Positions 9,805 to 60,583 of a stretch of DNA of 64,000 nucleotides are shown here, one piece after another. Positions within the stretch are counted from its first letter, which is position 1. Each line of letters begins with the position of its first letter. This DNA is from Apostichopus japonicus (taxonomy: Eukaryota > Echinodermata > Holothuroidea > Aspidochirotida > Stichopodidae): NCBI RefSeq assembly GCF_037975245.1, contig NC_092576.1, positions 6,062,001 through 6,126,000 of the forward strand, in the 5' to 3' direction. Below the pieces are notes generated by a model, which made no database searches, had not been told where the DNA came from, and saw only the letters and a list, made by a program, of their open reading frames with translations. The translations under genes and the position numbers were made by a program.

Positions 9805-9819
9805 TTTAATACACCATAT

Positions 9820-18040: not shown

Positions 18041-18337
18041 GCCTCCATAATAAAAAATAAAAATCTTCAAATTGAGGGTGCAAAAAGTTTGATGCATGTC
18101 TACAGTCAGTCACAGTCATAAGGATGAGATGTGAGCACAAGTAGTGGCTTGAGTGTGTCGCTTGCAAATAGACTATAGAGTTCAGAACATACCTGGCTAG
18201 GTTGAGTAGGATTTGGCCTATCTCAAAACTCAGCTTACTGGCTAGGCGTATACTGCTTATGTCCTTTTGTCAAATTGCAGTGTTTGGAAGATGTAACAAA
18301 TGGAAGATGTCTTTGAATATTTGAACAATTCTAGATA

Positions 18338-19755
18338 TAGACCGGCAGCCCAGTGCACTTTGATCAAACGAACGAGGTACCAATATCTGAGTATTGGAAC
18401 ATTTGTGGAAAAACCCAGTATATCCAAAAGTGGATATCTGCCGTGGTCGCTCTGCTGCATGTGGCCCCTGGGGCCGGTTAAAGGGGGTCCAAAAATGCAT
18501 CTGATCAAACGAACGAGGTACCACTTGAAACCAATGTCAACTTAATGCATGAATGCCACATAGTACTGAATGGCCCATGCCAGACAAATTTTCTGCTGCA
18601 AAGGGCCCGCCAGACGCCCAAGAAGGGCTCCTAAAAAAATGCATCTGATCAAACGAACGAGGTACCACTTGAAACCAATGTCAACTTAATGCATGAATGT
18701 CACAAAGTACTGAATGGCCTATGCCAGACAGATTTTCTGCTGCTAAGGGCCCGCCAGACGCCCCCAAATATGGCCCAAATGCCCATTAGCGTAGCATTGA
18801 CCCAGATTAAATATGCAAGGTACCACTCAAAACCGGTTTGGAATGTTCGGGTTGATCTTACAGACTATGGAAATCATCATGCCAGACAAATTTTCTGCTA
18901 CAAAGGGCCCGCCAGACGCCCCAAAAGGGCCCATAAAATGCATTTGATCAAACGAACGAGGTACCACTTGAAACCAATGTCAACTTAATGTATGAATGCC
19001 ACAAAGTACTGAATGGCCTATGCCAGACAAAATTTCTGCTGCTAAGGGCCCGCCAGACGCCCCCAAATATGGCCCAAATGCCCATTAGCGTAGCATTGAC
19101 CCAGATTAAATATGCAAGGTACCACTCAAAACCGGTTTGGAATGTTCGGGTTGATCTTACAGACTATGGAAATCATCATGCCAGACAAATTTTCTGCTAC
19201 AAAGGGCCCGCCAGACGCCCCAAAAGGGCCCATAAAATGCATTTGATCAAACGAACGAGGTACCACTTGAAACCAATGTCAACTTAATGTATGAATGCCA
19301 CAAAGTACTGAATGGCCTATGCCAGACAAAATTTCTGCTGCTAAGGGCCCGCCAGACGCCCCCAAATATGGCCCAAATGCCCATTAGCGTAGCATTGACC
19401 CAGATTAAATATGCAAGGTACCACTCAAAACCGGTTTGGAATGTTCGGGTTGATCTTACAGACTATGGAAGTCATCATGCCAGACAAATTTTCTGCTACA
19501 AAGGGCCCGCCAGACGCCCCAAAAGGGCCCATAAAAAATGCATTTGATCAAACGAACGAGGTACCGCTTGAAACCAATGTCAACTTAATGCATGAATGCC
19601 ACTGGAGCAGATTAACCGGCCCCAGGGGCCACTTGCAGCAGAGCGACCACGGCAGACATCCACTTTTGGATATACTGGGTTTTTCCACAAATGTTCCAAT
19701 ACTTAGATATTGGTACCTCGTTCGTTTGATCAAAGTGCACTGGGCTGCCGGTCTA
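18338..19755. mobile_element. Foldback DNA transposon, copy 1 (FB1)
   Basis: It starts TAGACCGGCAGCCCAGTGC and ends with the exact complement, the terminal inverted repeats running about 150 bp. Between them are three ~299-bp tandem units (from about 18689, 18988 and 19287), each rich in GATCAAACGAACGAGGTACC and GCCAGACAAATTTTCTGCT. There is no transposase. The flanks are ATA on the left (18335-18337) and TCA on the right (19756-19758), which do not match each other but do match the flanks of copy 2 when inverted. The superfamily is not assigned. Confidence 0.9.
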
Positions 19756-19773
19756 TCATTATGGGGTATTAAA

Positions 19774-19779
19774 TTTATT
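19774..19779 (-). promoter_or_regulatory. Polyadenylation signal of copy R
   Basis: TTTATT on the plus strand is AATAAA on the sense strand, about 125 bases after the TGA (19903-19905), in the same context as in copy L. It sits only 18 bases from the FB1 element. Confidence 0.65.
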
Positions 19780-20104
19780 GAAGATTCCCTGTGTGTTAAC
19801 GAGCAAAGCTGCATTCTTCCTTTTCTTTCTTAGTCCTTTCTGTTAAAAAAGAGAGATGATTCAGTTGGATCATACGGACGTCGTCCAACTGCCTTTCAAA
19901 TTTCAAACTTTCACATCGGATGGCGATTGTTTATGATCCCAGTCTTCCAAAAGCTTTGCTCTAATTAATTGAAATATACAAATATATTTATAAATACAAG
20001 CAGAATAGGAGCATGTTTCCATTTTTATTAAAACAATGTAAACTATCTCAGTGATTAGTTATAACTCTTAATACTTACATATTGTACATTGGCTTAGTGA
20101 GTGT

Positions 20105-23100
20105 GCGAAAGGACGGCAAAGGACGAGATCTGTAGTGCAGTTTACTTATTGTACACAAATAACGTCATTATTACTGTAGCTTATTGTTTGTGCACAAAGT
20201 AAAACATTTTTACTGTAGCTTAGTGATTGTACACAAAGTAAGACATTAGTACTGTAGCTTATTGACTGTGAACAAAGTAAGACATTAGTAATGTAGCTTA
20301 TTGACTGTGCACATATGACGACATTAGTACTGTAGCTTATTGGCTGTGCACATATGACGACATTAGTACTGTAGCTTATTGACTGTGCACATATGACGAC
20401 ATTAGTACTGCAGCTTATTGACTGTGCACATATGACGACATTAGTACTGCAGCTTACTGACTGTGCACATATGACGACATTTGTACTGTAGCTTATTGAC
20501 TGTGCACATATGACGACATTAGTACTGTAGCTTAGAGATTGTACACAAATGATGACAAGGGTACAGTAGCTTAGAGATTGTACACAAATGATGACGTTAG
20601 TAATGTAGCTTATTGACTGTACACAAAGTAAGACGTTATAATACTGTAGCTTATTGACTGTGCACATATGGCGACATAAGTACTGTAGCTTATTGACTGT
20701 GCACATATGACGACATTAGTACTGCAGCTTATTGACTGTGCACATATGACGACATTTGTACTGTAGCTTATTGACTGTGCACATATGACGACATTAGTAC
20801 TGTAGCTTAGAGATTGTACACAAATGATGACAAGGGTACAGTAGCTTAGAGATTGTACACAAATGATGACGTTAGTAATGTAGCTTATTGACTGTACACA
20901 AAGTAAGACGTTATAATACTGTAGCTTATTGACTGTGCACATATGGCGACATAAGTACTGTAGCTTATTGACTGTGCACATATGACGACATTAGTACTGT
21001 AGCTTATTGGCTGTGCACATATGACGACATTAGTACTGTAGCTTATTGACTGTGCACATATGACGACATTAGTACTGCAGCTTATTGACTGTGCACATAT
21101 GACGACATTAGTACTGCAGCTTATTGACTGTGCACATATGACGACATTTGTACTGTAGCTTATTGACTGTGCACATATGACGACATTAGTACTGTAGCTT
21201 ATTGACTGTGCACATATGACGACATTAGTACTGTAGCTTATTGGCTGTGCACATATGACGACATTAGTACTGTAGCTTATTGACTGTGCACATATGACGA
21301 CATTAGTACTGTAGCTTATTGGCTGTGCACATATGACGACATTAGTACTGTAGCTTATTGACTGTGCACATATGACGACATTAGTACTGTAGCTTATTGG
21401 CTGTGCACATATGACGACATTAGTACTGTAGCTTATTGACTGTGCACATATGACGACATTAGTACTGCAGATTATTGACTGTGCACATATGACGACATTA
21501 GTACTGCAGCTTATTGACTGTGCACATATGACGACATTTGTACTGTAGCTTATTGACTGTGCACATATGACGACATTAGTACTGTAGCTTAGAGATTGTA
21601 CACAAATGATGACAAGGGTACAGTAGCTTAGAGATTGTACACAAAGTAAGACGTTAGTACTGTAGCTTATTGACTGTGCACATATGACGACATTAGTACT
21701 GTAGCTTATTGACTGTGCACATATGACGACATTAGTACTGTAGCTTATTGGCTGTGCACATATGACGACATTAGTACTGTAGCTTATTGACTGTGCACAT
21801 ATGACGACATTAGTACTGTAGCTTATTGGCTGTGCACATATGACGACATTAGTACTGTAGCTTATTGACTGTGCACATATGGCGACATTAGTACTGTAGC
21901 TAATTGGCTGTGCACATATGACGACATTAGTACTGTAGCTAATTGGCTGTGCACATATGACGACATTAGTACTGCAGCTTATTGACTGTGCACATATGAC
22001 GACATTAGTACTGCAGCTTATTGACTGTGCACATATGACGACATTTGTACTGTAGCTTATTGACTGTGCACATATGACGACATTAGTACTGCAGCTTATT
22101 GACTGTGCACATATGACGACATTTGTACTGTAGCTTATTGACTGTGAACATATGACGACATTAGTACTGTAGCTTAGAGATTGTACACAAATGATGACAA
22201 GGGTACAGTAGCTTAGAGATTGTACACAAAGTAAGACGTTAGTACTGTAGCTTATTGATTGTACACAAAGTAAGACGTTATAATACTGTAGCTTATTGAC
22301 TGTGCACATATGGCGACATTAGTACTGTAGCTTATTGACTGTGCACATATGACGACATTAGTACTGTAGCTTATTGGCTGTGCACATATGACGACATTAG
22401 TACTGTAGCCTATTGACTGTGCACATATGACGACATTAGTACTGCAGCTTATTGACTGTGCACATATGACGACATTAGTACTGCAGCTTATTGACTGTGC
22501 ACATATGACGACATTTGTACTGCAGCTTATTGACTGTGCACATATGACGACATTTGTACTGTAGCTTATTGACTGTGCACATATGACGACATTAGTACTG
22601 TAGCTTAGAGATTGTACACAAATGATGACAAGGGTACAGTAGCTTAGAGATTGTACACAAAGTAAGACGTTAGAACTGTAGCTTATTGATTGTACACAAA
22701 GTAAGACGTTATAATACTGTAGCTTATTGACTGTGCACATATGGCGACATTAGTACTGTAGCTTATTGACTGTGCACATATGACGACATTAGTACTGTAG
22801 CTTATTGGCTGTGCACATATGACGACATTAGTACTGTAGCTTATTGACTGTGCACATATGACGACATTAGTACTGCAGCTTATTGACTGTGCACATATGA
22901 CGACATTAGTACTGCAGCTTATTGACTGTGCACATATGACGACATTCGTACTGTAGCTTATTGACTGTGCACATATGACGACATTAGTACTGTAGCTTAG
23001 AGATTGTACACAAATGATGACAAGGGTACAGTAGCTTAGAGATTGTACACAAAGTAAGACGTTAGTACTGTAGCTTATTGACTGTGCACATATGACGACA

Positions 23101-26100
23101 TTAGTACTGTAGCTTATTGACTGTGCACATATGACGACATTAGTACTGTAGCTTATTGGCTGTGCACATATGACGACATTAGTACTGTAGCTTATTCACT
23201 GTGCACATATGACGACATTAGTACTGTAGCTTATTGGCTGTGCACATATGACGACATTAGTACTGTAGCTTATTGACTGTGCACATATGGCGACATTAGT
23301 ACTGTAGCTAATTGGCTGTGCACATATGACGACATTAGTATTGTAGCTTATTGACTGTGCACATATGACGACATTAGTACTGCAGCTTATTGACTGTGCA
23401 CATATGACGACATTAGTACTGCAGCTTATTGACTGTGCACATATGACGACATTTGTACTGTAGCTTATTGACTGTGCACATATGACGACATTAGTACTGC
23501 AGCTTATTGACTGTGCACATATGACGACATTTGTACTGTAGCTTATTGACTGTGAACATATGACGACATTAGTACTGTAGCTTAGAGATTGTACACAAAT
23601 GATGACAAGGGTACAGTAGCTTAGAGATTGTACACAAAGTAAGACGTTAGTACTGTAGCTTATTGATTGTACACAAAGTAAGACGTTATAATACTGTAGC
23701 TTATTGACTGTGCACATATGGCGACATTAGTACTGTAGCTTATTGACTGTGCACATATGACGACATTAGAACTGTAGCTTATTGGCTGTGCACATATGAC
23801 GACATTAGTACTGTAGCTTATTGACTGTGCACATATGACGACATTAGTACTGCAGCTTATTGACTGTGCACATATGACGACATTAGTACTGCAGCTTATT
23901 GACTGTGCACATATGACGACATTTGTACTGTAGCTTATTGACTGTGCACATATGACGACATTAGTACTGTAGCTTAGAGATTGTACACAAATGATGACAA
24001 GGGTACAGTAGCTTAGAGATTTTACACAAAGTAAGACGTTAGTACTGTAGCCTATTGATTGTACACAAAGTAAGACGTTATAATACTGTAGCTTATTGAC
24101 TGTGCACATATGGCGACATTAGTACTGTAGATTATTGACTGTGCACATATGACGACATTAGTACTGTAGCTTATTGGCTGTGCACATATGACGACATTAG
24201 TACTGTAGCTTATTGACTGTGCACATATGACGACATTAGTACTGCAGCTTATTGACTGTGCACATATGGCGACATTAGTACTGTAGCTTATTGGCTGTGC
24301 ACATATGACGACATTAGTACTGTAGCTTATTGACTGTGCACATATGACGACATTAGTACTGCAACTTATTGACTGTGCACATATGACGACATTAGTACTG
24401 CAGCTTATTGACTGTGCACATATGACGACATTTGTACTGCAGCTTATTGACTGTGCACATATGACGACATTAGTATTGTAGCTTATTGACTGTGCACATA
24501 TGGCGACATTAGTACTGTAGCTTATTGGCTGTGCACATATGACGACATTAGTACTGTAGCTTATTGACTGTGCACATATCACGACATTAGTACTGCAGCT
24601 TATTGACTGTGCACATATGACGACATTAGTACTGCAGCTTATTGACTGTGCACATATGACGACATTTGTACTGCAGCTTATTGACTGTGCACATATGACG
24701 ACATTAGTACTGTAGCTTAATGACTGTGCACATATGACGACATTAGTACTGTAGCTTAGAGATTGTACACAAATGATGACAAGGGTACAGTAGCTTAGAG
24801 ATTTTACACAAAGTAAGACGTTAGTACTGTAGCCTATTGATTGTACACAAAGTAAGACGTTATAATACTGTAGCTTATTGACTGTGCACATATGGCGACA
24901 TTAGTACTGTAGCTTATTGACTGTGCACATATGACGACATTAGTACTGTAGCTTATTGGCTGTGCACATATGACGACATTAGTACTGCAGCTTATTGACT
25001 GTGCACATATGACGACATTAGTACTGCAGCTTATTGACTGTGCACATATGACGACATTTGTACTGCAGCTTATTGACTGTGCACATATGACGACATTTGT
25101 ACTGTAGCTTATTGACTGTGCACATATGACGACATTAGTACTGTAGCTTAGAGATTGTACACAAAGGATGACAAGGGTACAGTAGCTTAGAGATTGTACA
25201 CAAAGTAAGACGTTAGTACTGTAGCTTAGAGATTGTACACAAAGTAAGACGTTATAATACTGTAGCTTATTGACTGTGCACATATGGCGACATTAGTACT
25301 GTAGCTTATTGACTGTGCACATATGACGACATTAGTACTGTAGCTTATTGGCTGTGCACATATGACGACATTAGTACTGTAGCTTATTGACTGTGCACAT
25401 ATGACGACATTAGTACTGCAGCTTATTGACTGTGCACATATGACGACATTAGTACTGCAGCTTATTGACTGTGCACATATGACGACATTTGTACTGTAGC
25501 TTATTGACTGTGCACATATGACGACATTAGTACTGTAGCTTAGAGATTGTACACAAATGATGACAAAGGTACAGTAGCTTAGAGATTGTACACAAAGTAA
25601 AACGTTAGTACTGTAGCTTATTGATTGTACACAAAGTAAGACGTTATAATACTGTAGCTTATTGACTGTGCACATATGGCGACATTAGTACTGTAGCTTA
25701 TTGACTGTGCACATATGACGACATTAGTACTGTAGCTTATTGGCTGTGCATATATGACGACATTAGTACTGTAGCTTATTGACTGTGCACATATGACGAC
25801 ATTAGTACTGTAGCTTATTGGCTGTGCACATATGACGACATTAGTACTGAAGCTTATTGACTGTGCACATATGGCGACATTAGTACTGTAGCTAATTGGC
25901 TGTGCACATATGACGACATTAGTACTGTAGCTTATTGACTGTGCACATATGACGACATTAGTACTGCAGCTTATTGACTGTGCACATATGACGACATTAG
26001 TACTGCAGCTTATTGACTGTGCACATATGACGACATTTGTACTGTAGCTTATTGACTGTGCACATATGACGACATTAGTACTGTAGCTTAGAGATTTTAC

Positions 26101-29100
26101 ACAAATGATGACAAGGGTACAGTAGCTTAGAGATTGTACACAAAGTAAGACGTTAGTACTGTAGCTTAGTGATTGTACACAAAGTAAGACGTTATAATAC
26201 TGTAGCTTATTGACTGTGCACATATGGCGACATTAGTACTGTAGATTATTGACTGTGCACATATGACGACATTAGTACTGTAGCTTATTGGCTGTGCACA
26301 TATGACGACATTAGTACTGTAGCTTATTGACTGTGCACATATGACGACATTAGTACTGCAGCTTATTGACTGTGCACATATGGCGACATTAGTACTGTAG
26401 CTTATTGGCTGTGCACATATGACGACATTAGTACTGTAGCTTATTGACTGTGCACATATGACGACATTAGTACTGCAGCTTATTGACTGTGCACATATGA
26501 CGACATTAGTACTGCAGCTTATTGACTGTGCACATATGACGACATTTGTACTGCAGCTTATTGACTGTGCACATATGACGACATTAGTACTGTAGCTTAT
26601 TGACTGTGCACATATGGCGACATTAGTACTGTAGCTTATTGACTGTGCACATATGGTGACATTAGTACTGTAGCTTATTGGCTGTGCACATATGACGACA
26701 TTAGTACTGTAGCTTATTGACTGTGCACATATGACGACATTAGTACTGCAGCTTATTGACTGTGCACATATGACGACATTAGTACTGCAGCTTATTGACT
26801 GTGCACATATGACGACATTTGTACTGCAGCTTATTGACTGTGCACATATGACGACATTAGTACTGTAGCTTATTGACTGTGCACATATGACGACATTAGT
26901 ACTGTAGCTTAGAGATTGTACACAAATGATGACAAGGGTACAGTAGCTTAGAGATTTTACACAAAGTAAGACGTTAGTACTGTAGCCTATTGATTGTACA
27001 CAAAGTAAGACGTTATAATACTGTAGCTTATTGACTGTGCACATATGGCGACATTAGTACTGTAGCTTATTGACTGTGCACATATGACGACATTAGTACT
27101 GTAGCTTATTGGCTGTGCACATATGACGACATTAGTACTGCAGCTTATTGACTGTGCACATATGACGACATTAGTACTGCAGCTTATTGACTGTGCACAT
27201 ATGACGACATTTGTACTGCAGCTTATTGACTGTGCACATATGACGACATTTGTACTGTAGCTTATTGACTGTGCACATATGGCGACATTAGTACTGTAGC
27301 TTATTGGCTGTGCACATATGACGACATTAGTACTGTAGCTTATTGACTGTGCACATATGACGACATTAGTACTGCAGCTTATTGACTGTGCACATATGAC
27401 GACATTAGTACTGCAGCTTATTGACTGTGCACATATGACGACATTTGTACTGCAGCTTATTGACTGTGCACATATGACGACATTAGTACTGTAGCTTATT
27501 GACTGTGCACATATGACGACATTAGTACTGTAGCTTAGAGATTGTACACAAATGATGACAAGGGTACAGTAGCTTAGAGATTTTACACAAAGTAAGACGT
27601 TAGTACTGTAGCCTATTGATTGTACACAAAGTAAGACGTTATAATACTGTAGGTTATTGACTGTGCACATATGGCGACATTAGTACTGTAGCTTATTGAC
27701 TGTGCACATATGACGACATTAGTACTGTAGCTTATTGGCTGTGCACATATGACGACATTAGTACTGCAGCTTATTGACTGTGCACATATGACGACATTAG
27801 TACTGCAGATTATTGACTGTGCACATATGACGACATTTGTACTGCAGCTTATTGACTGTGCACATATGACGACATTTGTACTGTAGCTTATTGACTGTGC
27901 ACATATGACGACATTAGTACTGTAGCTTAGAGATTGTACACAAAGGATGACAAGGGTACAGTAGCTTAGAGATTGTACACAAAGTAAGACGTTAGTACTG
28001 TAGCTTAGAGATTGTACACAAAGTAAGACGTTATAATACTGTAGCTTATTGACTGTGCACATATGGCGACATTAGTACTGTAGCTTATTGACTGTGCACA
28101 TATGACGACATTAGTACTGTAGCTTATTGGCTGTGCACATATGACGACATTAGTACTGTAGCTTATTGACTGTGCACATATGACGACATTAGTACTGCAG
28201 CTTATTGACTGTGCACATATGACGACATTTGTACTGTAGCTTATTGACTGTGCACATATGACGACATTAGTACTGTAGCTTAGAGATTGTACACAAATGA
28301 TGACAAGGGTACAGTAGCTTAGAGATTGTACACAAAGTAAAACGTTAGTACTGTAGCTTATTGATTGTACACAAAGTAAGACGTTATAATACTGTAGCTT
28401 ATTGACTGTGCACATATGGCGACATTAGTACTGTAGCTTATTGACTGTGCACATATGACGACATTAGTACTGTAGCTTATTGGCTGTGCACATATGACGA
28501 CATTAGTACTGTAGCTTATTGACTGTGCACATATGACGACATTAGTACTGTAGCTTATTGGCTGTGCACATATGACGACATTAGTACTGAAGCTTATTGA
28601 CTGTGCACATATGGCGACATTAGTACTGTAGCTAATTGGCTGTGCACATATGACGACATTAGTACTGTAGCTTATTGACTGTGCACATATGACGACATTA
28701 GTACTGCAGCTTATTGACTGTGCACATATGACGACATTAGTACTGCAGCTTATTGACTGTGCACATATGACGACATTTGTACTGTAGCTTATTGACTGTG
28801 CACATATGACGACATTAGTACTGTAGCTTAGAGATTTTACACAAATGATGACAAGGGTACAGTAGCTTAGAGATTGTACACAAAGTAAGACGTTAGTACT
28901 GTAGCTTAGTGATTGTACACAAAGTAAGACGTTATAATACTGTAGCTTATTGACTGTGCACATATGGCGACATTAGTACTGTAGCTTATTGACTGTGCAC
29001 ATATGACGACATTAGTACTGTAGCTTATTCGCTGTGCACATATGACGACATTAGTACTGTATCTTATTGACTGTGCACATATGACGACATTAGTACTGCA

Positions 29101-32100
29101 GCTTATTGACTGTGCACATATGACGACATTAGTACTGCAGCTTATTGACTGTGCACATATGACGACATTTGTACTGTAGCTTATTGACTGTGCACATATG
29201 ACGACATTAGTACTGTAGCTTAGAGGTTGTACACAAATAATGACAAGGGTACAGTAGCTTAGAGATTGTACACAAAGTAAGACGTTACTACTGTATCTTA
29301 TTGATTGTACACAAAGTAAGACGTTATAATACTGTAGTTTATTGACTGTGCACATATGGCGACATTAGTACTGTAGCTTATTGACTGTGCACATATGACG
29401 ACATTAGTACTGTAGCATATTGGCTGTGCACATATGACGACATTAGTACTGTAGCTTATTGACTGTGCACATATGACGACATTAGTACTGCAGCTTATTG
29501 ACTGTGCACATATGACGACATTTGTACTGCAGCTTATTGACTGTGCACATATGACGACATTTGTACTGTAGCTTATTGACTGTGCACATATGACGACATT
29601 AGTACTGTAGCTTAGAGATTGTACACAAAGGATGACAAGGGTACAGTAGCTTAGAGATTGTACACAAAGTAAGACGTTAGTACTGTAGCTTAGAGATTGT
29701 ACACAAAGTAAGACGTTATAATACTGTAGCTTATTGACTGTGCACATATGGCGACATTAGTACTGTAGCTTATTGACTGTGCACATATGACGACATTAGT
29801 ACTGTAGCTTATTGGCTGTGCACATATGACGACATTAGTACTGTAGCTTATTGACTGTGCACATATGACGACATTAGTACTGCAGCTTATTGACTGTGCA
29901 CATATGACGACATTAGTACTGCAGCTCATTGACTGTGCACATATGACGACATTTGTACTGTAGCTTATTGACTGTGCACATATGACGACATTAGTACTGT
30001 AGCTTAGAGATTGTACACAAATGATGACAAGGGTACAGTAGCTTAGAGATTGTACACAAAGTAAAACGTTAGTACTGTAGCTTATTGATTGTACACAAAG
30101 TAAGACGTTATAATACTGTAGCTTATTGACTGTGCACATATGGCGACATTAGTACTGTAGCTTATTGACTGTGCACATATGACGACATTAGTACTGTAGC
30201 TTATTGGCTGTGCACATATGACGACATTAGTACTGTAGCTTATTGACTGTGCACATATGACGACATTAGTACTGTAGCTTATTGGCTGTGCACATATGAC
30301 GACATTAGTACTGAAGCTTATTGACTGTGCACATATGGCGACATTAGTACTGTAGCTAATTGGCTGTGCACATATGACGACATTAGTACTGTAGCTTATT
30401 GACTGTGCACATATGACGACATTAGTACTGCAGCTTATTGACTGTGCACATATGACGACATTAGTACTGCAGCTTATTGACTGTGCACATATGACGACAT
30501 TTGTACTGTAGCTTATTGACTGTGCACATATGACGACATTAGTACTGTAGCTTAGAGATTTTACACAAATGATGACAAGGGTACAGTAGCTTAGAGATTG
30601 TACACAAAGTAAGACGTTAGTACTGTAGCTTATTGATTGTACACAAAGCAAAACGTTATAATACTGTAGCTTATTGATTGTGCACATATGGCGACATTAG
30701 TACTGTAGCTTATTGACTGTGCACATATGACGACATTAGTACTGTAGCTTATTGGCTGTGCACATATGACGACATTAGTACTGTAGCTTATTGACTGTGC
30801 ACATATGACGACATTAGTACTGCAGCTTTTTGACTGTGCACATATGACGACATTAGTACTGCAGCTTATTGACTGTGCACATATGACGACATTTGTACTG
30901 TAGCCTATTGACTGTGCACATATGACGACATTAGTACTGTAGCTTATTGACTGTGCACATATATCGACATTAGTACTGCAGCTTATTGACTGTGCACATA
31001 TGACGACATTAGTACTGCAGCTTATTGACTGTGCACATATGACGACATTTGTACTGTAGCTTATTCGCTGTGCACATATGACGACATTAGTACTGTATCT
31101 TATTGACTGTGCACATATGACGACATTAGTACTGCAGCTTATTGACTGTGCACATATGACGACATTAGTACTGCAGCTTATTGACTGTGCACATATGACG
31201 ACATTTGTACTGTAGCTTATTGACTGTGCACATATGACGACATTAGTACTGTAGCTTAGAGATTGTACACAAATAATGACAAGGGTACAGTAGCTTAGAG
31301 ATTGTACACAAAGTAAGACGTTACTACTGTATCTTATTGATTGTACACAAAGTAAGACGTTATAATACTGTAGTTTATTGACTGTGCACATATGGCGACA
31401 TTAGTACTGTAGCTTATTGACTGTGCACATATGACGACATTAGTACTGTAGCATATTGGCTGTGCACATATGACGACATTAGTACTGTAGCTTATTGACT
31501 GTGCACATATGACGACATTAGTACTGCAGCTTATTGACTGTGCACATATGACAACATTAGTACTGCAGCTTATTGACTGTGCACATATGACGACATTTGT
31601 ACTGTAGCTTATTGACTGTGCACATATGACGACATTAGTACTGTAGCTTAGAGATTGTACACAAATGATGACAAGGGTACAGTAGCTTAGAGATTGTACA
31701 CAAAGTAAGACGTTAGTACTGTAGCTTATTGACTGTGCACATATGGCGACATTAGTACTGTAGCTTATTGACTGTGCACATATGACGACATTAGTACTGT
31801 AGCTTATTGGCTGTGCATATATGACGACATTAGTACTGTAGCTTATTGACTGTGCACATATGACGACATTAGTACTGTAGCTTATTGGCTGCGCACATAT
31901 GACGACATTAGTACTGTAGCTTATTGACTGTGCACATATGACGACATTAGTACTGCAGCTTATTGACTGTGCACATATGACGACATTAGTACTGCAGCTT
32001 ATTGACTGTGCACATATGACGACATTTGTACTGCAGCTTATTGACTGTGCACATATGACGACATTAGTACTGTAGCTTATTGACTGTGCACATATGACGA

Positions 32101-38316: not shown

Positions 38317-38340
38317 CACTTCTTCATTTGCCTTCTCTTT

Positions 38341-45301: not shown

Positions 45302-45513
45302 CTGATCGCGGTCGGTGGACTTCTGTGACACGCATATTGTAGGATACTTATCAATTTGGTTAAGTCCCATTCTTGCCATTTTTCGTTTTTAATGCTCAAT
45401 CTTTTCAAAGTGTTAAGCGGAGGTAAAACTGCTCCAGAGCTTAGATTAATAGCTACACGGTTATCTTCGACTGACGTCAAGCTGTCTTGCAGTACAATCT
45501 TTGAAATTTCAAC
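45302..45513 (-). CDS. Copy R exon with leucine-rich-repeat-like segment
   Basis: 212 bases, the same length and phase as the L exon at 2908-3119. It carries NLSSGAVLPPLNTLKRLSI and WQEWDLTKLISILQYAC and has no stop. The residues that differ from L are spread through the exon while the leucine frame is kept. Confidence 0.78.
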
Positions 45514-48580: not shown

Positions 48581-48685
48581 CTTTCAGTCGGCGGCGGCGG
48601 AACACGATCAGAAGTACGACGATGCAACTCATCAACACGAATAACACAACAACAACAACAATCCAACCAGTTCGTCGTTCCTCCT
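48581..48685 (-). CDS. Copy R exon 4: transmembrane segment
   Basis: A phase 1-1 exon of 105 bases reading EEERRTG, then about 22 hydrophobic residues (WIVVVVVLFVLMSCIVVLLIVF), then RRRRLK. Positive residues after the helix fit a type I membrane protein with the Ig domains outside. The GCGGCGGCGG tract encodes the arginines. Confidence 0.82.
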
Positions 48686-49060
48686 CTAAAATGCGAAGAG
48701 AAATGGTCAAAACATGAACATCAACAATTCCAGATACAAGTTGACATCATCTCTAGATAACAAATCAACACAGCTATGATAATTAGGTTCATATTAGCCC
48801 ACAAAAATGCATGTGAATAATAAACAACGTGATATCAAATCGGTATTAAGGACTGTTCACTGAATACAAAGTCAAATTACCTTACCGATATTTTTTTTTT
48901 AATGTGCCACTTTTTTTTAACAACGCTACCCTCTTCAATTCCAAATCAAAACAACAAAAGCATTCGATCATTTTAGGTTTACTAACTGTCACACCACATA
49001 TAATTTAACTTGCACAAAAAATATTTATTGGGAAGTTCTTGCATTTAATTAAGTTCTTAC

Positions 49061-49691
49061 CCTGAAAAATTATATCAGTAAATTTCGTTGTAACACCGTC
49101 AGTGCTATAAACACACTTGTACGTGCCCAAGGTAGGATTTCCAGACGTGTTAATGACAAGAGAGCTATTTTGCAATGTGAATCCATCGGGGAATAAAACT
49201 TCACTCATACTTTTAGTTCCAAATGCAATAATTTCTTCCGTTTGACCCACTTTTTTCCATACAAAGAATGACACATCTTCCCCGCAGTTCATAACCACTC
49301 TTTCATTAGGAGTTACAATCAGAGGTTCGCTAGATGCTTCCAGTGTCCCGCTTTCAACCAGTATCGTAGATTCACTGTTACCTACCTCAGACACATCGCT
49401 TCTCGCTGCACAGACGAATACACGTAATGAGAGAGAGGTTTCTAACGAAATATCTACAACAGTATGGTAAGATTGTAATTCATTGACACTGGTTGTTACA
49501 GATTTCGACTGAGAAGAGATCTGTCCATCCTTAGTGTTAGTTCTTAACTTCCATGACAAATCATCTAATACTTCACCTACTCGTAAAACATTACAACTTA
49601 AACTGGATGCAGCGTTTAATTTTAAAAAAACATAATGATTTCTGGTCACATCCAGTAGCATCAATGGTTGGGTACGGTTCTTGTGGTTTGT
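49061..49691 (-). CDS. Copy R exon 3: Ig-like domains 2 and 3, with frameshift
   Basis: Entering in phase 1, the frame reads KPQEPYPTIDATGCDQKSLCFF and then shifts at the A7 run (T7 on the sense strand, 49624-49630). After the shift it continues through Ig2 (SLSCNVLRV, LSWKL, FVCAARS) and Ig3 (VVMNCGED, FVWKK, GTYKCVYS) to a GTAAGAAC donor. Both Ig domains keep the Cys-Trp-Cys pattern. One base fewer in the run would give a continuous 210-codon exon, so the shift is either a recent mutation or a homopolymer error. Confidence 0.78.
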
Positions 49692-49744
49692 CTGAAAATT
49701 GTGGAAATAAAGACATATTAAGTAATATTGTCCAGCAAGAAAAT

Positions 49745-49750
49745 ATTAGG

Positions 49751-49807
<57 letters not shown>
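49745..49807. repeat. TA dinucleotide microsatellite
   Basis: An uninterrupted TA run of about 28 units in the intron of copy R, just upstream on the sense strand of the Ig2-Ig3 exon. Confidence 0.9.
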
Positions 49808-49809
<2 letters not shown>

Positions 49810-50459
49810 ATATTTTTCATAAATTTAGTTGGGTTCCCCAACAACTAATGGTCGCAGGGAAGTCAATCTTCTTTAATAAAGATCTTTCCTACTAAATGCA
49901 GTTCACACTAAGCTGTTAATTTATTGTTAATATTGGAGACCATACTTTGCGAATAATTTATATTTCAATAAGAAATTGAAGATGTAACTTGTCCCTTACA
50001 AATATATTCTATTTTGACTATTTACTGAAGATAATATATTAGCAACTGTAATTACCAAATTATATCCAGTCGTCACGTAAACACCGCATGATATTCAAAC
50101 ATATTCATAGCTTCATTTTAGGGTATTAATGTGCTGCAGTGTGGTTCGACCGTTAGGTATATGCTCACATGCTATTTCAATAATGTAACTTTTTGCACTG
50201 TTGAACCATTGTAACTCTATTAGTAGGCTACTAATCACGTGAGACTATTTTATCATGTGTATGATTGTACACCGACAGTTTCTCACTTGTTCGCACTGTT
50301 CCAGCGTTTGTATGATAACATTAAACAACATCTATAAATAATGAATATGACTGAGTGAGTAGATGATTAAATGTATGGATGAATGGATTCATGAATCAAT
50401 GTACACACCACCGTTTGTCAGCTTGTAAACCTTCACGTTAAAAGAGAAACAATGTATAG

Positions 50460-52700
50460 TTTAGTTTAGTAGAAAAAAGGATCATGAGGGACACTTAAGT
50501 CCCCATCAAGGACCCTATAAAGAGAGGGAAAAAACTGAAGACACAAACACTCAGTCCCGATTACAATGCTTAAAGTGCTTGTCCAAAGCATTCTTAAACC
50601 CATTGACAATACTTGCAAGTACAACTTTCTCAGGCAAACTATTCCACTCATTCACAACCCTATTAGAAAAAAAGTTATGCCGAATATTAATCCTACTATG
50701 CGACTTTTGAAGTTTAAGACAATGACCTCTAGTACAACTACTGTTTGCAAACATGAAAAAGTCGGTAAAGGATAAATTGTCGAAACCATACACAATCTTG
50801 AAAACCTGGATCAAGTCCCCACGTAACCTCCTAAGCTCCAGTGTGGTGAAATTCAACAGTTGTAACCGCCTATAATAAGGAACCCTCTTTAAGGAACTAA
50901 TCATCCTAGTAGCTCTCCTCTGGACCTTTTCGAGTACTTCCTTATCCTTAGCAAAATAAGGGTTCCAAGCCTGCACAGCATACTCCAGATGAGGCCTAAC
51001 CAACTGCTTATAAAGCCTAACTACGATGTCCTCTTTCAGAAAACTGAAGTTCCTCTTGATCATACCTAAAACCCTATTACCTCTTTTAGCAGCTTCAAGA
51101 CAATGTTTGGAAGGTTGCAGAGACGAGTCAATGTAGATACCTAGGTTTCTTTCAACAGAGACCTCCTGTAACTCCACACCATTTAGATTGTATGTAAACT
51201 TTTGGTTACTACTACCAATGTGCATTACCTTAAATTTATCAATATTAAAAAGCATTTGCCACCCCTGAGACCAGGAAAAAATCTTATCCAAATCCGCTTG
51301 AAATTTCTCAGAATCGCTTTTGGAAGGGACCTCAGAATACAATTTGATGTCATCAGCAAACTTCTTAGCTGTACACAAAATATCTCCGTCGATGTCTATC
51401 TTATCAGACTGTGGTGCCCTAAGTGAAACAATTGCATCTTTAACTTTCTGCTTTGACCTGACAAAAGAAAAGAAGGCCTTTGGGTTATCCTTAATTTTTA
51501 GGGCAATGTTTTTTTCGAAATTCAATTTTGCATCAGAGACTAAGCATTCTACCTTCAGACGATGAATTTTAAACTTGGCCAAAAGAGATTCAGATTTAGT
51601 CCTCCTAAACAACTTCCACATTCTACGTTTTTGCCTAATTGCACATCTAACTTTCTTATTCATCCAGTGAGGCTTACTGCTTTTACGATTCTTCCACGGA
51701 ACATGATTTTCCATAATGGCTTTAAATTATCAGCAAAACAAATCCAAGACTGAGAAGCACTCATAACACTAAACAAATTAATCCAATCTGTACTCTTTAG
51801 CAAAGTTTCAATTGCCTCTGTATCTGATCTCGAAAAATCAGGGACTTTTTACTTGCTAACAGAACTTACGACCTTGCAAACAACATCAAAAGCTAGTATA
51901 TCATGATCACTAGTTCCTAGTTTTCCTAGACCGGTCAAATCAACAACACTGCTTGGATTAGAACTCAAAACAAGATCCAGGATGTTATCCCCCCTAGTAG
52001 GGAAAGTAACATGTTGATGTAAAAAGCAATCTTGCACAACATCTAGAAAATTACTACCTTTCCTACTACTAGAACCATCTATCCAATTAATGTCAGGAAA
52101 ATTAAAGTCGCCCATTATAACAACATCACCTTTAGCAGCCTTTCTAATTGAATCAAACAGCACGACATCATTATCATCGCTGCTGTTAGGAGAGCGGTAA
52201 ACAACACTCACAGTGATAACGTCCCTGGACCTCTTGGAGTTGTTTGTGGACAACTCGCACCAGACAGAATTAACAAAAGACCCTTGCAACTGAGATTTCT
52301 CAACACTTACAATGTCATCCCTAACATACAGTAAAACTCCCCCACCAACCCCGTTATGAGTATCCCTTCTGTCCTGACGATACACAACATACCCCGGGTG
52401 AGAAACCTCAGCACTATCAATGTCCTCCCTTAACCAAGACTCGGTGATACCAAACACATCCGGTTTCAGATCCTCGAGAAGCACAGTAAATTCAGCAAAT
52501 TTTTTATGAATACTTCTAGCATTGGTAAAGACAATCTTCAGCTTATCCCTGAAACTATGTACCTTAGCATGCCTCCTAAAGTTAGAACTATGGCTATCAC
52601 TTTTCTTGCTCTCAAAACGCCTATAATCGCCTCCACTAGGAACATAATCCTTATCCAAACTAATTCCTGGCTTCATCGCCCCCCAATTTAGTTTAAACAT
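50460..52700 (-). mobile_element. CR1-like non-LTR retrotransposon with internal deletion, in copy R intron
   Basis: The endonuclease part (52700-51849) has APE-type motifs: FTNARS, GITESWL, MGDFNFPDINW and GTSDHD. A stop after SVSK and one frame change follow, then a second frame (51714-50551) runs through MNKKVR. It then passes directly into FADDIKLYSEV, the late reverse-transcriptase catalytic motif, and on to LVRPHLEYAVQAWNPY and TLELRRLRGDLIQ, typical CR1/L2-clade C-terminal motifs. The palm motifs before FADD, such as the usual QG(S/C)VLGP box, are missing, so the element is internally deleted and inactive. It sits between the Ig1 and Ig2 exons of R, in the same orientation. Confidence 0.87.
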
Positions 52701-52884
52701 AGAAATATTCTCGTAAATTTAGCTAATTCCAACCTGGATGATTATCACCCTTTGTTCACACATTTTAATATAACCTTTGCATTAATTAGTGTTACGCGTC
52801 ATTTTCATTAACATATTATTATCATCGCTTTTATTATTATTGACTAAGATTTGCATCATGATATTACGCAAACATCTTGAAACT

Positions 52885-53022
52885 ATTTATATATTTAATT
52901 GAAATCGTAATGAGTTTTAAAATCCAGAACAGTCAGTGAAAAACTTCCAGCCTCCACCGGAATTCGAAGCCGGGCCTCCCGTTTTTTATGCGGACACCCT
53001 AACCACTAGTCTATGGACGCTG
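52885..53022 (-). mobile_element. tRNA-derived SINE
   Basis: On the minus strand the head reads GCGTCCATAGACTAGTGGTTAG with an A-box-like TAGACTAGTGG (53003-53013) and a B-box-like GCTTCGAATTCC (52959-52970). The 5' GCGTCCA pairs with TGGAGGC at 6 of 7 positions, as a tRNA acceptor stem would. The anticodon arm is too short, so it is not a working tRNA. The tail ends CATTACGATTTCAATTA, which recurs beside the TA microsatellite at 60583-60610. Confidence 0.65.
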
Positions 53023-54023
53023 ATTAACATGTATAGAACAGGATAATGAAATATGAAAGGAGAATGTGAAGATCATCGAGGAATGATTGGCCAAACTAAA
53101 GACATATAGTTTACATCATGCTTTTCTTCTCAACAAGCACGAACGATTTTTAGAGAAGAATTTATCTCCTACAGTAGGCATAAAATCAGTCATTGTCTCG
53201 TTTGTTCTCTTATTAGAGAATGACTTGACATTGAATGATTTGCAGGAGCAAGAGAAATGTTCAGTAAAATTTTGGAGTATTGGTTAGGGTCTCTGGAAAT
53301 TCAAGCTCATTTTAGATGCATTCATTACTAAAAACTTAAACAGTTCTCTAAAATGGGAAAATATTGAACTATTGAATTATGCTTCTTCCTGCTCAAGAAA
53401 TATTTATAAATTACTGCTTACTCGTAGTTAATCGCCATGTTACTGCAATCAACTGTTTAAGTTAATTGAATTTTCGACACGTTAGTAGCAATGTTTTATC
53501 GTCCAGTAAAAGGATACTGCTTCTTTATTTTTACTGTGGAGGATTTGAGGAGACATGAAATCATGCTTTGACGGATTGAGAATTCACTTCTAATTTCTTG
53601 TAAGGTGTCACGACTACTATTTTTGTCAGATTTGTTTCAACATTTAACAAGAAATTAGTTATTATGTGATTGTCTTATTTTCTTATTTTCAACAGGGAAC
53701 ATTTTTTTCTTTGTAAGAAAATCACTGAAGAGCGACCACCTGTTAATGGCTTTATAAGCAAAGTATAAGGTTTATGTTAAAAAGTAGAAAGCTAGACTCC
53801 GAGAAAGGCTCATATAAAGTATGAGGAATTAAGACGTTCCTTTTATTATTGTAAAATGTTATATGAAGGATAAACTGAATATATCTGTATTTGCAAGATT
53901 TCCTCTATATGAAAGCCTAAAGATAATGTATTGTCTTCTACTTTGTGATATTTGTAAATACAACCACCACAATAAACTGATGCAAATGAACTATGAATGT
54001 CGTTATCAAAGAAATCGACTTAC
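53023..54023 (-). other. Intron of copy R, no feature seen
   Basis: AT-rich intron between the SINE and the Ig1 exon. Only short open frames are present and I recognise nothing in them. Confidence 0.5.
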
Positions 54024-54353
54024 CATAGACAACTACACGAACATCTTCAAAGATAGGATCTTCGTCTATAGTGGCCAATGTCGTTTCTCTGAAAACATGA
54101 TTATGTTTGGTGGAAACTTTGGTGATTATAAGAGATCCATTGGGGTGAACTAGGTATTCTCCGGACTTATATCCGGGCCCAGATATTCTACCTTCTGTGA
54201 GGGATATAAATGGTCGATCGTTGCTAGTCACATTGGTTGAATTAAACCAAACTGCTCCATATAAATCACCAGGATAGTTGCAGGATATCGTACCTTTCTT
54301 TCCTAATTGCAGATATTGCGGAGACTGGCACTCATCTGATGAAACAACCGTGC
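54024..54353 (-). CDS. Copy R exon 2: Ig-like domain 1
   Basis: A 110-codon exon, phase 1 on both sides. It has the B-strand Cys (GTISCNYPG), the core Trp (AVWFN) and a late GSLIITKVS strand typical of V-type Ig folds. The usual F-strand YxC is replaced by FRETTLA, so the standard disulfide is not possible as read; an extra Cys near the start (DECQS) may pair instead. N-glycosylation sequons occur at NST and NVT. Confidence 0.75.
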
Positions 54354-54400
54354 CTGTAATTGAAGAAAAAGACGTTTACCTTGTTTCATATCAAATTAAA

Positions 54401-54404
54401 GTTG

Positions 54405-54470
<66 letters not shown>
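54401..54470. repeat. TA dinucleotide microsatellite
   Basis: A run of about 35 TA/AT units in the first intron of copy R, less than 50 bases from the Ig1 exon acceptor. Confidence 0.9.
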
Positions 54471-54472
<2 letters not shown>

Positions 54473-54917
54473 ATTTCCCCCCTCAGACTGAGTTCAAAAT
54501 GTATAAATTGGTACATGTCAAAGTAACATAGAACCACCATATGAAATAGTAATTAGTTTTGACTTTCATTCGACTACTGTTTAAAAATACCATTCAATTG
54601 ACACCCTAACCCAACCACACTGCCCAACCAGAATAGCATCCTTCATATTGCATTTCCACCAGTATTCAAGAACCTTTCACCACATATGCGAAAGTCACCG
54701 CCCCCAATACCTGTCCAATCTTCCCTTCCAATATTGGGCGTATGCATGTGATGTGATTGAGTAAGTACTGATCCAGACATAGCAAATCCTAATACCGAAG
54801 TACACGTCTTTCATTTCACTTCTTGTATCTACATGTAACCCTTCCCTCTCCCTTACATCTATAAACCATCGCAGTCCCACCCCCACTCTCCAAGATAAAT
54901 TCGGTACTGAATCTTAC

Positions 54918-54972
54918 CACTTAATGAGCACCAAAGGATAGCAGAGATTACAAAAAGGTTTGTGGTAGACAT
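54918..54972 (-). CDS. Copy R exon 1: signal peptide
   Basis: ATG at 54972 reads MSTTNLFVISAILWCSLS, a short polar start and a hydrophobic core, then a GTAAGA donor in phase 1. A TTTTCAG directly before the ATG could be an acceptor, so an untranslated exon may lie upstream. Gene 3 at 61577 has the same arrangement: short signal exon, phase-1 donor. Confidence 0.75.
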
Positions 54973-56121
54973 CTGAAAATGGAAGAAAACTGACACTTAA
55001 TTGAACTCCTGACATAAATTGATCGTGGGACATCACGAAATAATGGAAATCAGGTCTGGTATTCAGAATGGCTCTCTATAGACCTGTGGGCACGGTTTGT
55101 TGTGAAATAAATATAGGATGGTTTCTAATCTATGACATATGGGTTATATTACTGTCTGATTTATGACTAAACATTAATGATAAACAAAAACCATTTATGT
55201 TATACTTGCAATGTGACGCTACATATGGACATACACCTTAAAAGGATATACTGAAGGACATGCATATGTACAGAGACACGCAGAAGACTCAGAGATGATG
55301 GTGGGGTTGGGGATACTTCGACTTTTGGGGTAGGGGAGTGTACCCTTGTAGTCCATAAGTTAGGTCTAAAGGCAATGCTGTGCTTTATAATACTTTACTT
55401 GTATGCTGTAGAAAGATATGCTACTCCGGTTTACATGTATAGTGTAACGTTCGTCAGCATATATATTTTACAGGGCAACCCTTCACATTAAGATATGCAC
55501 ATGGCATATTGCATACCATAGAATTAGAGGTAGGACGAATGAAGTGCTGAAGCCACTTATCCAACTGGTGGCGCTTTGCTTGTACGTCAAGAAAGTACGA
55601 GTGCGTACTACAAACACTACGTCCTTGACGTTACTGAAGTGATGAAGTTGACATAAATCACTCAAAATGGTGATATCGTAGGCCGCATTAAGGTGCCCAA
55701 ATCGTCAAAACTTTGCCAGTGGACTGCAGTTTCACAAGTAATTCTTACGAAGCGATATAAGAAGCAATTAAATGAATACAATTATAGCTACTGCTGTATT
55801 GTTATATACTGGACCCATGATATAGTTATCCTAGGCCCCTAAACCGACTACGGCTGCCTTTTCAGTTGCGATATGACAAAAGCCTAATAAAAAAACTTAT
55901 CACCAATTCAGTTTACTTAAAACCGTATCCTTAACGATAGATCCACATCCCAGAATAACATTGGATGACGGTTTTGATGTATTGAGCTTATCACTAACAA
56001 TTCAGTAAAAGGAAAATAAGCTTAGCCTAACTTAAGCCTTTGTACGTAGCTTTGCCCTTGGTCTAAATTAGGGAACCTAGGTCATAATTTAAGTTTAGCA
56101 CTTTTTAGTCTATTAACATAT
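54973..56121 (-). promoter_or_regulatory. Upstream region of copy R (probable promoter and 5' UTR)
   Basis: This stretch lies between the signal-peptide ATG and foldback copy 2, so any promoter of copy R must be here or across the transposon. I see no clear TATA box or conserved block. If the inferred inversion is real, its distal edge at 56119-56121 is a rearrangement breakpoint. Confidence 0.4.
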
Positions 56122-59100
56122 TAGACCGGCAGCCCAGTGCACTTTGATCAAACGAACGAGGTACCAATATCTGAGTATTGGAACATTTGTGGAAAAACCC
56201 AGTATATCCAAAAGTGGATGTCTGCCGTGGTCGCTCTGCTGCATGTGGCCCCTGGGGCCGGTTAAAGGGGGTCCAAAAATTCATCTGATCAAACGAACGA
56301 GGTACCACTTGAAACCAATGTCAACTTAATGCATGAATGCCACATAGTACTGAATGGCCCATGCCAGACAAATTTTCTGCTGCAAAGGGCCCGCCAGACG
56401 CCCAAGAAGGGCCCCTAAAAAAATGCATCTGATCAAACGAACAAGGTACCACTTGAAACCAATGTCAACTTTATGCATGAATGCCACAAAGTACTGAATG
56501 GCCTATGCCAGACAAATTTTCTGCTGCTAAGGGCCCGCCAAACGCCCCCAAATATGGCCCAAATGCCCGTTAGCGTAGCATTGACCCAGATTAAATATGC
56601 AAGGTACCACTCAAAACCGGTTTGGAATGTTCGGGTTGATCTTACAGACTATGGAAATCATCATGCCAGACAAATTTTCTGCTACAAAGGGCCCGCCAGA
56701 CGCCCCAAAAGGGCCCATAAAAATGCATTTGATCAAACGAACGAGGTACCACTTGAAACCAATGTCAACTTAATGCATGAATGTCACAAAGTACTGAATG
56801 GCCTATGCCAGACAAATTTTCTGCTGCTAAGGGCCCGCCAGACGCCCCCAAATATGGCCCAAATGCCCGTTAGCGTAGCATTGACCCAGATTAAATATGC
56901 AAGGTACCACTCAAAATCGGTTTGGAATGTTCGGGTTGATCTTACAGACTATGGAAATCATCATGCCAGACAAATTTTCTGCTACAAACGGGCTAACAGA
57001 CACACTAAAAAAGGGCCCCCAAATGGGCCATGATCAATCATAGTTGGTACCACACAAAACCAATATTAAATGCAAAGGTACTTTCCACAGAGTAAAGAAC
57101 TGCCAATGCAAGACAAATTTTCTTCTGCATAGGTCCCACCAGATAGAAAGTATAGGTGGCCCAATGCGGCCCTATATGGGCCTAATGAATTGTATATCGA
57201 TGCAGACTATATGTGCCTTGTGACATGACATTTGTAGCATTCCACAGAGTAAAGAAATGCCAATACAATACAAATTTTCTTCTGCAAAGTGCCCACCACA
57301 TGTAAAAAAAAATTATGCAGTTTAAATAGTTAAGATACCACAAGAAACCAATCTATAACAATCAAGAACATCCTGAATTATTCAAATTCCTTCCCGCTAC
57401 ATAGGCCAATGGAATAATGAGATAAGTATACTAGTAGGTGTGTATCAATTACTGAACATTTCATTGAGCAAAACAAAAATGACGCGAACTCAGTCTTTGA
57501 GGGAGATCCTGACAGTTATAATGCATTCTCAAATCCATTCTTTTTCCTTTTATCCATTCTTTTTCCTTTTATCCAGTCAGTACTTTGTATCGTGAGCAGT
57601 GTTTAACTTGGCAGTTACTTTGTTTCGCTGGAAACACTGGAGCAGATTAAAATCAGTTTATGTATTGTAAATAAGAAACCCAAAATCATTTTGTATCTTA
57701 AAACAATGTGTTTAAAATCAAAGTTTAAAACAAAGTTTAAAATCTTGAGAAAGAACGCTTAAGTGTCATCTTAAGACATACATGTAGTCGAACAAAAGAG
57801 ATTGTTTTGTTTCTTAAGCTCAGACAAAGAAACAATTATCAAACAGTGGTGAAAATGCTTTATAACGTGTACTTAACGATAAAGGTTTGGGTTGAAACTG
57901 TCCAATATGGTTTTTAAAAGATACATAATTGAAGCATAGAAATGTATATGTACCTTTATGCTAGGTACACCCTTTAAAGGACTTAAAATGCTAAGATTGA
58001 ACAAACAAATACTGATATCACCACGTATGACTCCATTCCTTGATACAAAATATAAAATGAGTAATCGGCCTATATTACTCCATCTTGGTCTTTTAGAACT
58101 TCCATCATTACACTAATTCAATTCGAATAGCTTGTAACAAGTCCAACAAATAGATGTGGCATCCATTTTTCAGAAATATGAATGCTAGATGAGGGTTTTT
58201 GTTTTCATCTATGAAGGAATCTTTTACCTTTCAAGAAAGTCATCTTGCTAGTTTAAAATGTACTAAAATCATAATTGGCAAAGATAGTAACAAAAGATCA
58301 CTATGTGATTACTCTGAACATGACACATGTTAGGTTCGAAGTATAAGAACTGAGAATTCATGTCTCTTGACAGTGATTAAACACTGGAGTGTGTGCATTG
58401 TAAAAAGACATTGCATTTGCCATTCAGACAGATCTCAAAAGAATCATTACTAAGTTTATGAAAATTAAGTATTCCCATGAACTTGATTCTAAAAAGACAA
58501 TGGAAGCTCAAATCTATGTTTCATTGTCGGAGTCATCACTCCAAGATGATGGTTCAGTACTTGAATCATCGGCATCAAACTCGGAAGCCACATCTGGTCG
58601 GCTACTTTGAAAATCTTCGCTCAGTTCCCCCTCTTGGAATAGATGATCTGGGAGAGCCGGTCCCTCAAACCAGTCAGGGCTGTAGCACCCATTCTTGCTC
58701 TTCCAACCGTAGTTCTGTGGATCCAAGCCAGGCAAGACTCTTCCTCAGAGTGTTAGAATTATAATGTGGGGAACTGTAATTTTTGCCCAGGCCAGCAAAT
58801 CCCAAAATATTTAGAGGCTAAGGTGAAAGTGTTATCTTTATTTTGCTTAGAGCAGCGAATAGCTAAATAAGATAAAACACTGGTCTTGTGTACAGTAACT
58901 CCAATTTATGCTGGAAACAATATAATCATGAGCTTGAAATGTCATGTTACAAGGCACATATATCCAATTCTTTAGACCCATATATAGGGCCACATTGGGC
59001 CACCTATTCTTTCTATCTGGTGGGACCTATGCAGAAGAAAATTTGTCTTGCATTGGCAGTTCTTTACTCTGTGGAAAGTACCTTTGCATTTAATATTGTT

Positions 59101-59917
59101 TTTGTGTGGTTCCAAACCGGTTTTGAGTGGTACCTTGCATATTTAATCTGGGTCAATGCTACGATAATGGGCATTTTGGGCCATATTTGGGGGCGTCTGG
59201 CGGGCCCTTAGCAGTAGAAAATTTGTCTGGCATAGGCCATTCAGTACTTTGTGGCATTCATGCATTAAGTTGACATTGGTTTCAAGTGGTACCTCGTTCG
59301 TTTGATCAAATGCATTTTTTATGGGCCCTTTTGGGGCGTCTGGCGGGCCCTTTGTAGCAGAAAATTTGTCTGGCATGATGATTTCCATAGTCTGTAAGAT
59401 CAACCCGAACATTCCAAACCGATTTTGAGTGGTACCTTGCATATTTCATCTGGGTCAATGCTACGCTAACGGGCATTTGGGCCATATTTGGGGGCGTCTG
59501 GCGGGCCCTTAGCAGCAGAAAATTTGTCTGGCATGGGCCATTCAGTACTTTGTGGCATTCATGCATTAAGTTGACATTGGTTTCAAGTGGTACCTCGTTC
59601 GTTTGATCAGATGCATTTTTTTAGGGGCCCTTCTTGGGCGTCTGGCGGGCCCTTTGCAGCAGAAAATTTGTCTGGCATGGGCCATTCAATACTATGTGGC
59701 ATTCATGCATTAAGTTGACATTGGTTTCAAGTGGTACCTCGTTCGTTTGATCAGATGCATTTTTGGGCCCCCTTTAACCGGCCCCAGGGGCCACATGCAG
59801 CAGAGCGACCACGGCAGACATCCACTTTTGGATATACTGGGTTTTTCCACAAATGTTCCAATACTCAGATATTGGTACCTCGTTCGTTTGATCAAAGTGC
59901 ACTGGGCTGCCGGTCTA
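56122..59917. mobile_element. Foldback DNA transposon, copy 2 (FB2), long form
   Basis: The termini and subterminal repeats are nearly identical to FB1 (TAGACCGGCAG at 56122, CTGCCGGTCTA ending 59917). The left arm holds two ~300-bp units and the right arm just over one, in inverted orientation. The unique 57000-59000 centre is AT-rich and includes a 73-codon minus-strand frame. The flanks TAT (56119-56121) and TGA (59918-59920) do not match. After 59917 comes sequence matching 9820 onward. Near-identity of the arms suggests recent activity or gene conversion. Confidence 0.9.
58514..58735 (-). CDS. Uncharacterised acidic 73-aa frame in the centre of FB2
   Basis: The frame reads MPGLDPQNYGWKSKNGCYSP, then DWFEGPALPDHLFQ, and ends in an acidic tail rich in D, E and S (SDDSDNET). 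An aromatic/Gly core followed by an acidic C-terminus looks like the last exon of a larger protein, perhaps the transposase of this family. I cannot name the family. No partner exon is identified upstream, and it may be a remnant. Confidence 0.3.
   Translation of the reverse strand: MPGLDPQNYGWKSKNGCYSPDWFEGPALPDHLFQEGELSEDFQSSRPDVASEFDADDSSTEPSSWSDDSDNET

Positions 59918-60583
<666 letters not shown>

Follow-up and report, generated by a model that had tools for sequence, protein, structure and literature searches.

What made two transposable elements of one family, lying on either side of a gene copy in the genome of the echinoderm Apostichopus japonicus, carry flanks that do not match each other? 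We addressed this question in a stretch of 64,000 bp (C16:6062001-6126000, hereafter the window), which sits within a tandem gene cluster on C16; the genome searched comprised 671,581,487 bases in 35 contigs. The elements are foldback elements, here referred to as FB1 and FB2. Two copies of the cluster gene are in question, R, which lies between the elements, and L, which lies outside them. That the segment between the elements was inverted is nearly certain. The best explanation, which we regard as very likely, is that foldback elements at two sites, A and B, recombined ectopically and thereby inverted 36,366 bp. The features on which the argument depends are the following.

18335..18337, no strand: ATA, belonging to ancestral element A as the left half of its target duplication, identified from the empty site A in the listed cluster paralogs
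18338..19755, + strand: FB1, foldback element of 1418 bp, with a left arm of ~1265 bp, a 14-bp centre remnant and a right arm of 144 bp
19756..19758, no strand: TCA, belonging to ancestral element B as the inverted half of its TGA duplication, identified from the empty site B
19756..56121, - strand: inverted segment of 36,366 bp, identified from flanks, empty sites and strand
19756..47203, - strand: paralogous unit R, identified from the alignment of L and R
56119..56121, no strand: TAT, belonging to ancestral element A as the inverted half of its ATA duplication, identified from the empty site A paralogs
56122..59917, + strand: FB2, foldback element of 3796 bp, 98.2% identical end to end with two other copies, L040 and L059
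59918..59920, no strand: TGA, belonging to ancestral element B as the right half of its target duplication, identified from the junction alignment with L
59918..60465, + strand: 3′ flank of R, stranded by the inversion, identified from its match to the downstream flank of L
96..11194, + strand: unit L, the paralog left uninverted, in which site B is empty and reads as a single TGA at 9820-9822

An earlier note on this DNA had described the flanks as ATA/TCA for FB1 and TAT/TGA for FB2, neither copy having a matching pair. Coordinates and letters were exact to the base, and each pair agrees in one letter of three. Turning round 19756-56121 yields ATA/ATA at FB1 and TGA/TGA at FB2, as the note had proposed. 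Its size of ~38-41 kb held in part: 41,580 bp are spanned with both elements included, and the segment between them is smaller, at 36,366 bp.

How the flanks of FB1 and FB2 compare with those of their family was judged from other copies in the genome. A 44-base element-end pattern, allowing up to 3 mismatches, had 100 forward and 104 reverse matches, and none in the reversed control. Forty element loci were taken from the places listed genome-wide; both ends were present in 35, and the other five (L072, L073, L074, L076 and L078) were dropped with the second end absent within 12 mismatches. Together with FB1 and FB2, this gave 37 copies, loci L001-L038 standing outside the counts. A perfect 3-bp duplication was found in 34 of the 35 other copies, the exception (L075) being CTA/TTA, and shuffled flank pairings matched in 3.3 of 37 on average. 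Non-matching flanks were thus present in 3/37 copies, among which FB1 and FB2 are the sole pair with exchanged target-site duplications.

Given the triplet usage of the family, two chance triplet matches have p ~0.009, and because AT-rich targets allow this, the swapped triplets alone are only moderate evidence and not conclusive. Such a chance would be needed if FB1 and FB2 were independent insertions that lost their own duplications and whose triplets match accidentally. The retention of the duplication in all but one of the other copies speaks against this, and we regard the empty sites in restored order at both breakpoints as excluding it; its probability is practically nil. The case for the inversion is carried by these empty sites, by the strand of R compared to the cluster and by the 34/35 control.

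The 3′ end of L (9490-9822) has 31 matches genome-wide, all of which fall at 4.67-6.08 Mb of C16. With the three pieces at 5.73 Mb taken as one, the gene cluster consists of 29 3′-end copies, L and R included, across 1.4 Mb. For site B, the register was examined in 28 copies (L included, R excepted): the downstream flank 59918-60465 is contiguous in 26, with an exact 3-base TGA overlap in 23. In L, the gene had been noted as undivided, reading CACCATATTGAGTACAAAG with TGA at 9820-9822, and both the letters and the position hold. The alignment of L to the joined flanks of R runs gapless through this single TGA, in agreement with the earlier reading that the 3′ flank of R ends at FB1 and resumes beyond FB2. 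Between 96 and 9822 (+), a dozen blocks of L, all inverted, match 47203-19756 on the opposite strand (~67-80%), whereas from 9820 L matches 59918 onwards on the same strand. Turning the segment back restores the collinearity, and L and R become direct tandem copies.

For site A, 40 of 192 candidates were scored in the search with the left flank (18038-18337), and 40 of 240 in that with the right flank as restored, which is 55822-56121 reverse-complemented. The two flanks meet in exact 3-base register in 9/9 listed cluster paralogs, and of five junction end points named before the left-flank result, four were correct, the fifth having been miscalculated as 5910361 instead of 5910063. Paralogs at both sites hence show a single target in restored, uninverted order.

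Both site-A flanks and the right flank of site B belong to repeats found elsewhere, generally at lower identity. As the right flank of FB2 is such a repeat (copies at 750-1738, and on other contigs at 69-83%), its match to L was perhaps unspecific; the exact register in most copies and a further collinear block in L (10491-10717) ruled this out. Repair from L at the breakpoint was also considered, with 9820-10066 and 59918-60164 being 97% identical and the sequence on both sides ~79%. Insertion-specific gene conversion was ruled out, as many other members match this block at 90-97% and some at 82-88%. Apart from the inversion, this block of ~247 bp after the gene 3′ end (9820-10066, 59918-60164) is 90-97% alike in many cluster members, while the sequence preceding it is often 79-82% alike, as if the block were homogenised or constrained.

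All 24 other 3′-end copies at 5.18-6.08 Mb, including L, are on the + strand, and R is the only one on the - strand; un-inverting the segment returns it to the strand of the others. Likewise, the listed cluster paralogs of the restored site A right flank are on the + strand (9/9), with the window copy on the - strand. The strand pattern of the cluster therefore argues that the present order is derived and the restored order ancestral. Elsewhere on the contig, four 3′-end copies on the - strand form a separate block (G000:C16:4668801-4837540) opposite to the main cluster, which indicates another orientation switch between 4.84 and 5.18 Mb; no element ends were found at this switch among the matches listed.

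An assembly error would leave the same footprint, the true chromosomal order being the restored one and the stretch between the repeated elements having been flipped during assembly; the segment does contain a 16-kb minisatellite. However, no N bases were found within the window, which makes a scaffolding flip unlikely. Moreover, an A. japonicus assembly is described in the available text of PMC10344927 as built on HiFi reads with a mean of 14.7 kb at 64x; if it is the source assembly, such reads should span elements of 1.4 and 3.8 kb. An assembly artefact is thus very unlikely.

A copy of the same transposon family stands at each breakpoint: TAGACCGGCAGCCCAGTG opens all four ends of FB1 and FB2 with 0 mismatches, whereas shuffled sequence, with up to 3 mismatches allowed, has 0.02 matches on average. 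The arms of the family are built of a ~144-bp end, a ~144-bp unit and ~299-bp dimers, that is, long terminal inverted repeats made of internal sub-repeats, as in foldback elements. FB1 is an internal-deletion derivative that itself keeps an inverted repeat of 144 bp only. Its 22-bp internal junction occurs in 0/36 other copies, and the closest relative of its left arm over 1265 bp is L049 (98.3%). A 14-bp core, CTGGAGCAGATTAA, is present once per element on the + strand, at 19602 in FB1 and 57637 in FB2. Judged by this core, the centres of FB1 and FB2 lie in the same orientation. The recombination between inverted copies proposed in the earlier note is therefore kept as recombination, but the copies are not simply inverted. 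On the other hand, oppositely oriented homologous stretches in which a crossover could take place are present in the arms, since the left arm of FB1 and the right arm of FB2 align inverted over 808 bp with 97.9% identity.

It is most likely that two foldback elements of the same family inserted at site A (ATA, upstream of R) and at site B (TGA, 15 bp past the AATAAA of R), each insertion making an ordinary 3-bp duplication. Since the long arms of two elements are inverted relative to each other, an arm of one could then pair with the opposite arm of the other, for example FB1 left with FB2 right. A crossover there would flip the 36,366 bp, including gene R, and each element would end with half of each duplication. 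We infer homologous recombination between the arms. Opposite arms are favoured over the centres because a central crossover would leave the centres inverted. That the insertions were separate fits the unequal lengths of FB1 and FB2 and the closer relatives that each has elsewhere.

Identical copies would instead be predicted if the inversion and both copies had been made in one step by aberrant transposition, namely hybrid element insertion from sister copies. This yields the same exchanged duplications, according to the available text of PMC2775673. The left arm of FB1 also differs from the arms of FB2 at 9-10 sites in 590 bp, under the between-element median of 15. However, FB1 (1418 bp) and FB2 (3796 bp) are not identical, other elements are closer over the same 590 bp (7 sites to FB1 left, 7-8 to the FB2 arms), and L040 and L059 match FB2 over its full length. 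Hybrid element insertion is thus highly improbable. Exchanged target duplications are also expected of bacterial replicative transposons, in which one element could give two inverted copies and an inversion by replicative intramolecular transposition. Such copies should start identical and inverted, whereas neither length nor sequence is the same in FB1 and FB2, and their centres point the same way. Moreover, short duplications with terminal inverted repeats are expected of cut-and-paste movement. We consider the replicative route extremely improbable.

Ectopic recombination between separately inserted elements was also examined through chimerism of the arms, comparing 74 arms over 144 bp, 73 over 285 bp and 73 over 590 bp, 14 of the last being dropped for their different repeat structure. 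Rare variants are shared in 12/25 same-element arm pairs compared to 5% of 1686 other pairs. One private variant is common to FB1 left and FB2 left, in 2/72 arms and in these two only. Under the model these are the sister arms of A, and the variant, being a single site, is suggestive and agrees with it.

Several points weigh against ectopic recombination as the explanation, or limit it. No crossover point is mappable inside the elements, as the arms are very alike and the shared variant is weak; with one private variant shared, there are too few informative sites to establish chimerism of both elements. The arm distances between FB1 and FB2 neither help nor exclude a common origin, and the call of same orientation is based on 14 bp. 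All empty-site, strand and element comparisons were drawn from one genome assembly, and the empty sites are paralogs, not the same locus on an uninverted chromosome. Site B is inexact in 5/28 copies, of which three have small length differences and two have no listed downstream match. The search with the downstream flank scored 40 of 1209 candidates, so that a downstream match may exist where none is listed; moreover, the 28 copies are not all independent because some hardly differ from one another.

Pairing of opposite arms is possible in either orientation of the elements, and hence the FB pair could act as a recurrent switch, with the segment flipping back and forth in the population. There is a slim chance of this; if true, the last gene of the cluster would occur either way round, next to different regulatory DNA in each case.

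The AATAAA of gene R and, by eye, its probable coding end lie just inside the breakpoint at 19756, and R kept both because the TGA of site B is 15 bp after the AATAAA. Site A of the cluster copy next to L (6054845) is 17 kb ahead of the 3′ end of L (6071822), which makes about one gene unit the probable content of the inversion. Other features of the inverted segment are as follows.

20150..36458, no strand: minisatellite of 16.3 kb, 39-bp unit, ~417 copies, inside R near its 3′ end
49005..54375, - strand: upstream part of the inverted segment, with open frames, among them those of long interspersed nuclear elements (LINE)
49005-49745, - strand: immunoglobulin (Ig)-like open frame, Ig_3 E 0.0039, below the Pfam cut-off
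50551-51726 and 51849-52718, within the inverted segment: LINE frames
53938-54375, - strand: further frame, no Pfam match

The gene product may be an Ig-like protein. A profile search of six proteins or frames gave the one Ig_3 match below the cut-off only, and nine exon-like fragments gave no match above it. Matches to solved structures (repeat proteins) were considered for the identity of the gene, had no passing stretch and were taken as noise. The counterpart of the R minisatellite in L is 0.76 kb of a 77-bp version (8667-9426). A tRNA-like match (52949-53020, - strand) lies beside the LINE frames. Inside R, there is also a diverged foldback-like element of ~956 bp (42895-43850) with the ends TAGAGCGGGAG and TAGACCGGGATC and the flanks CTG/TTG.

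None of the elements examined looks autonomous. By eye, arm repeats account for all of the 25 longest frames displayed for the 37 copies, autonomous copies not being sought, and, with regard to a P-type transposase, two fragments of the FB2 centre had no Pfam match above the cut-off. FB2 retains a frame of 76 amino acids, and no exact copies of the element end were found in viral contigs. Elsewhere in the family, the flanks are almost the same within the pairs L050/L052 and L049/L051, each pair occupying two places on C11; the lengths of L050 (3456 bp) and L052 (976 bp) suggest an in-place deletion following segmental duplication.

In this echinoderm locus, a transposon-made inversion is recorded cleanly and with its polarity, and a single genome offers many paralogous empty sites for comparison with both breakpoints. 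The locus also suggests that elements of the same orientation can invert DNA when exchange runs from arm to arm. The cluster is also a place to count rearrangements, by 3-bp flanks that are mismatched within an element and match those of a partner. In the literature searched, which covered few subscription papers, we found no transposon-made inversion with exchanged duplications outside Drosophila, and no echinoderm case of such an inversion from foldback-like elements.

The P element has a target duplication of 8 bp, and the FB family does not show the 7 or 8 bp of the Galileo/P superfamily. The closest known cases are the Galileo inversions 2j, 2q7 and 2z3 of Drosophila buzzatii, attributed to ectopic recombination between foldback-like elements in the available text of PMC2775673. 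As described there, both breakpoints carry foldback-like elements with long, internally repetitive arms, the target duplications are exchanged, the target is single-copy in the uninverted state and the mechanism is ectopic recombination, all as proposed here. Unlike Galileo, which is of the P superfamily and has 7-bp duplications in that text, the FB family has 3 bp in 34/35 copies. In PMC2775673, the Galileo copies of 2z3 are opposite in orientation and demonstrably chimeric, and 2z3 was set against uninverted chromosomes; the centres of FB1 and FB2 are in the same orientation, and their inversion was set against paralogs in one genome. The FB1/FB2 inversion also differs from the Galileo cases in its extent, 36 kb, in which about one unit of a tandem gene family lies. 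For the Drosophila virilis phylad, ectopic recombination between elements is also reported to be prevalent, and inversions there involve DAIBAM, a miniature inverted-repeat transposable element (PMC6278893, available text). The repeated use of short DNA elements for inversion-making ectopic recombination in the virilis group resembles the case proposed here, but the element and the phylum are others, and the term "target site duplication" is absent from the part of PMC6278893 available. The process is thus already known from fruit flies; the scar left by FB1 and FB2 is unusually clear, and would carry the Drosophila finding that foldback-like elements make inversions into another phylum.

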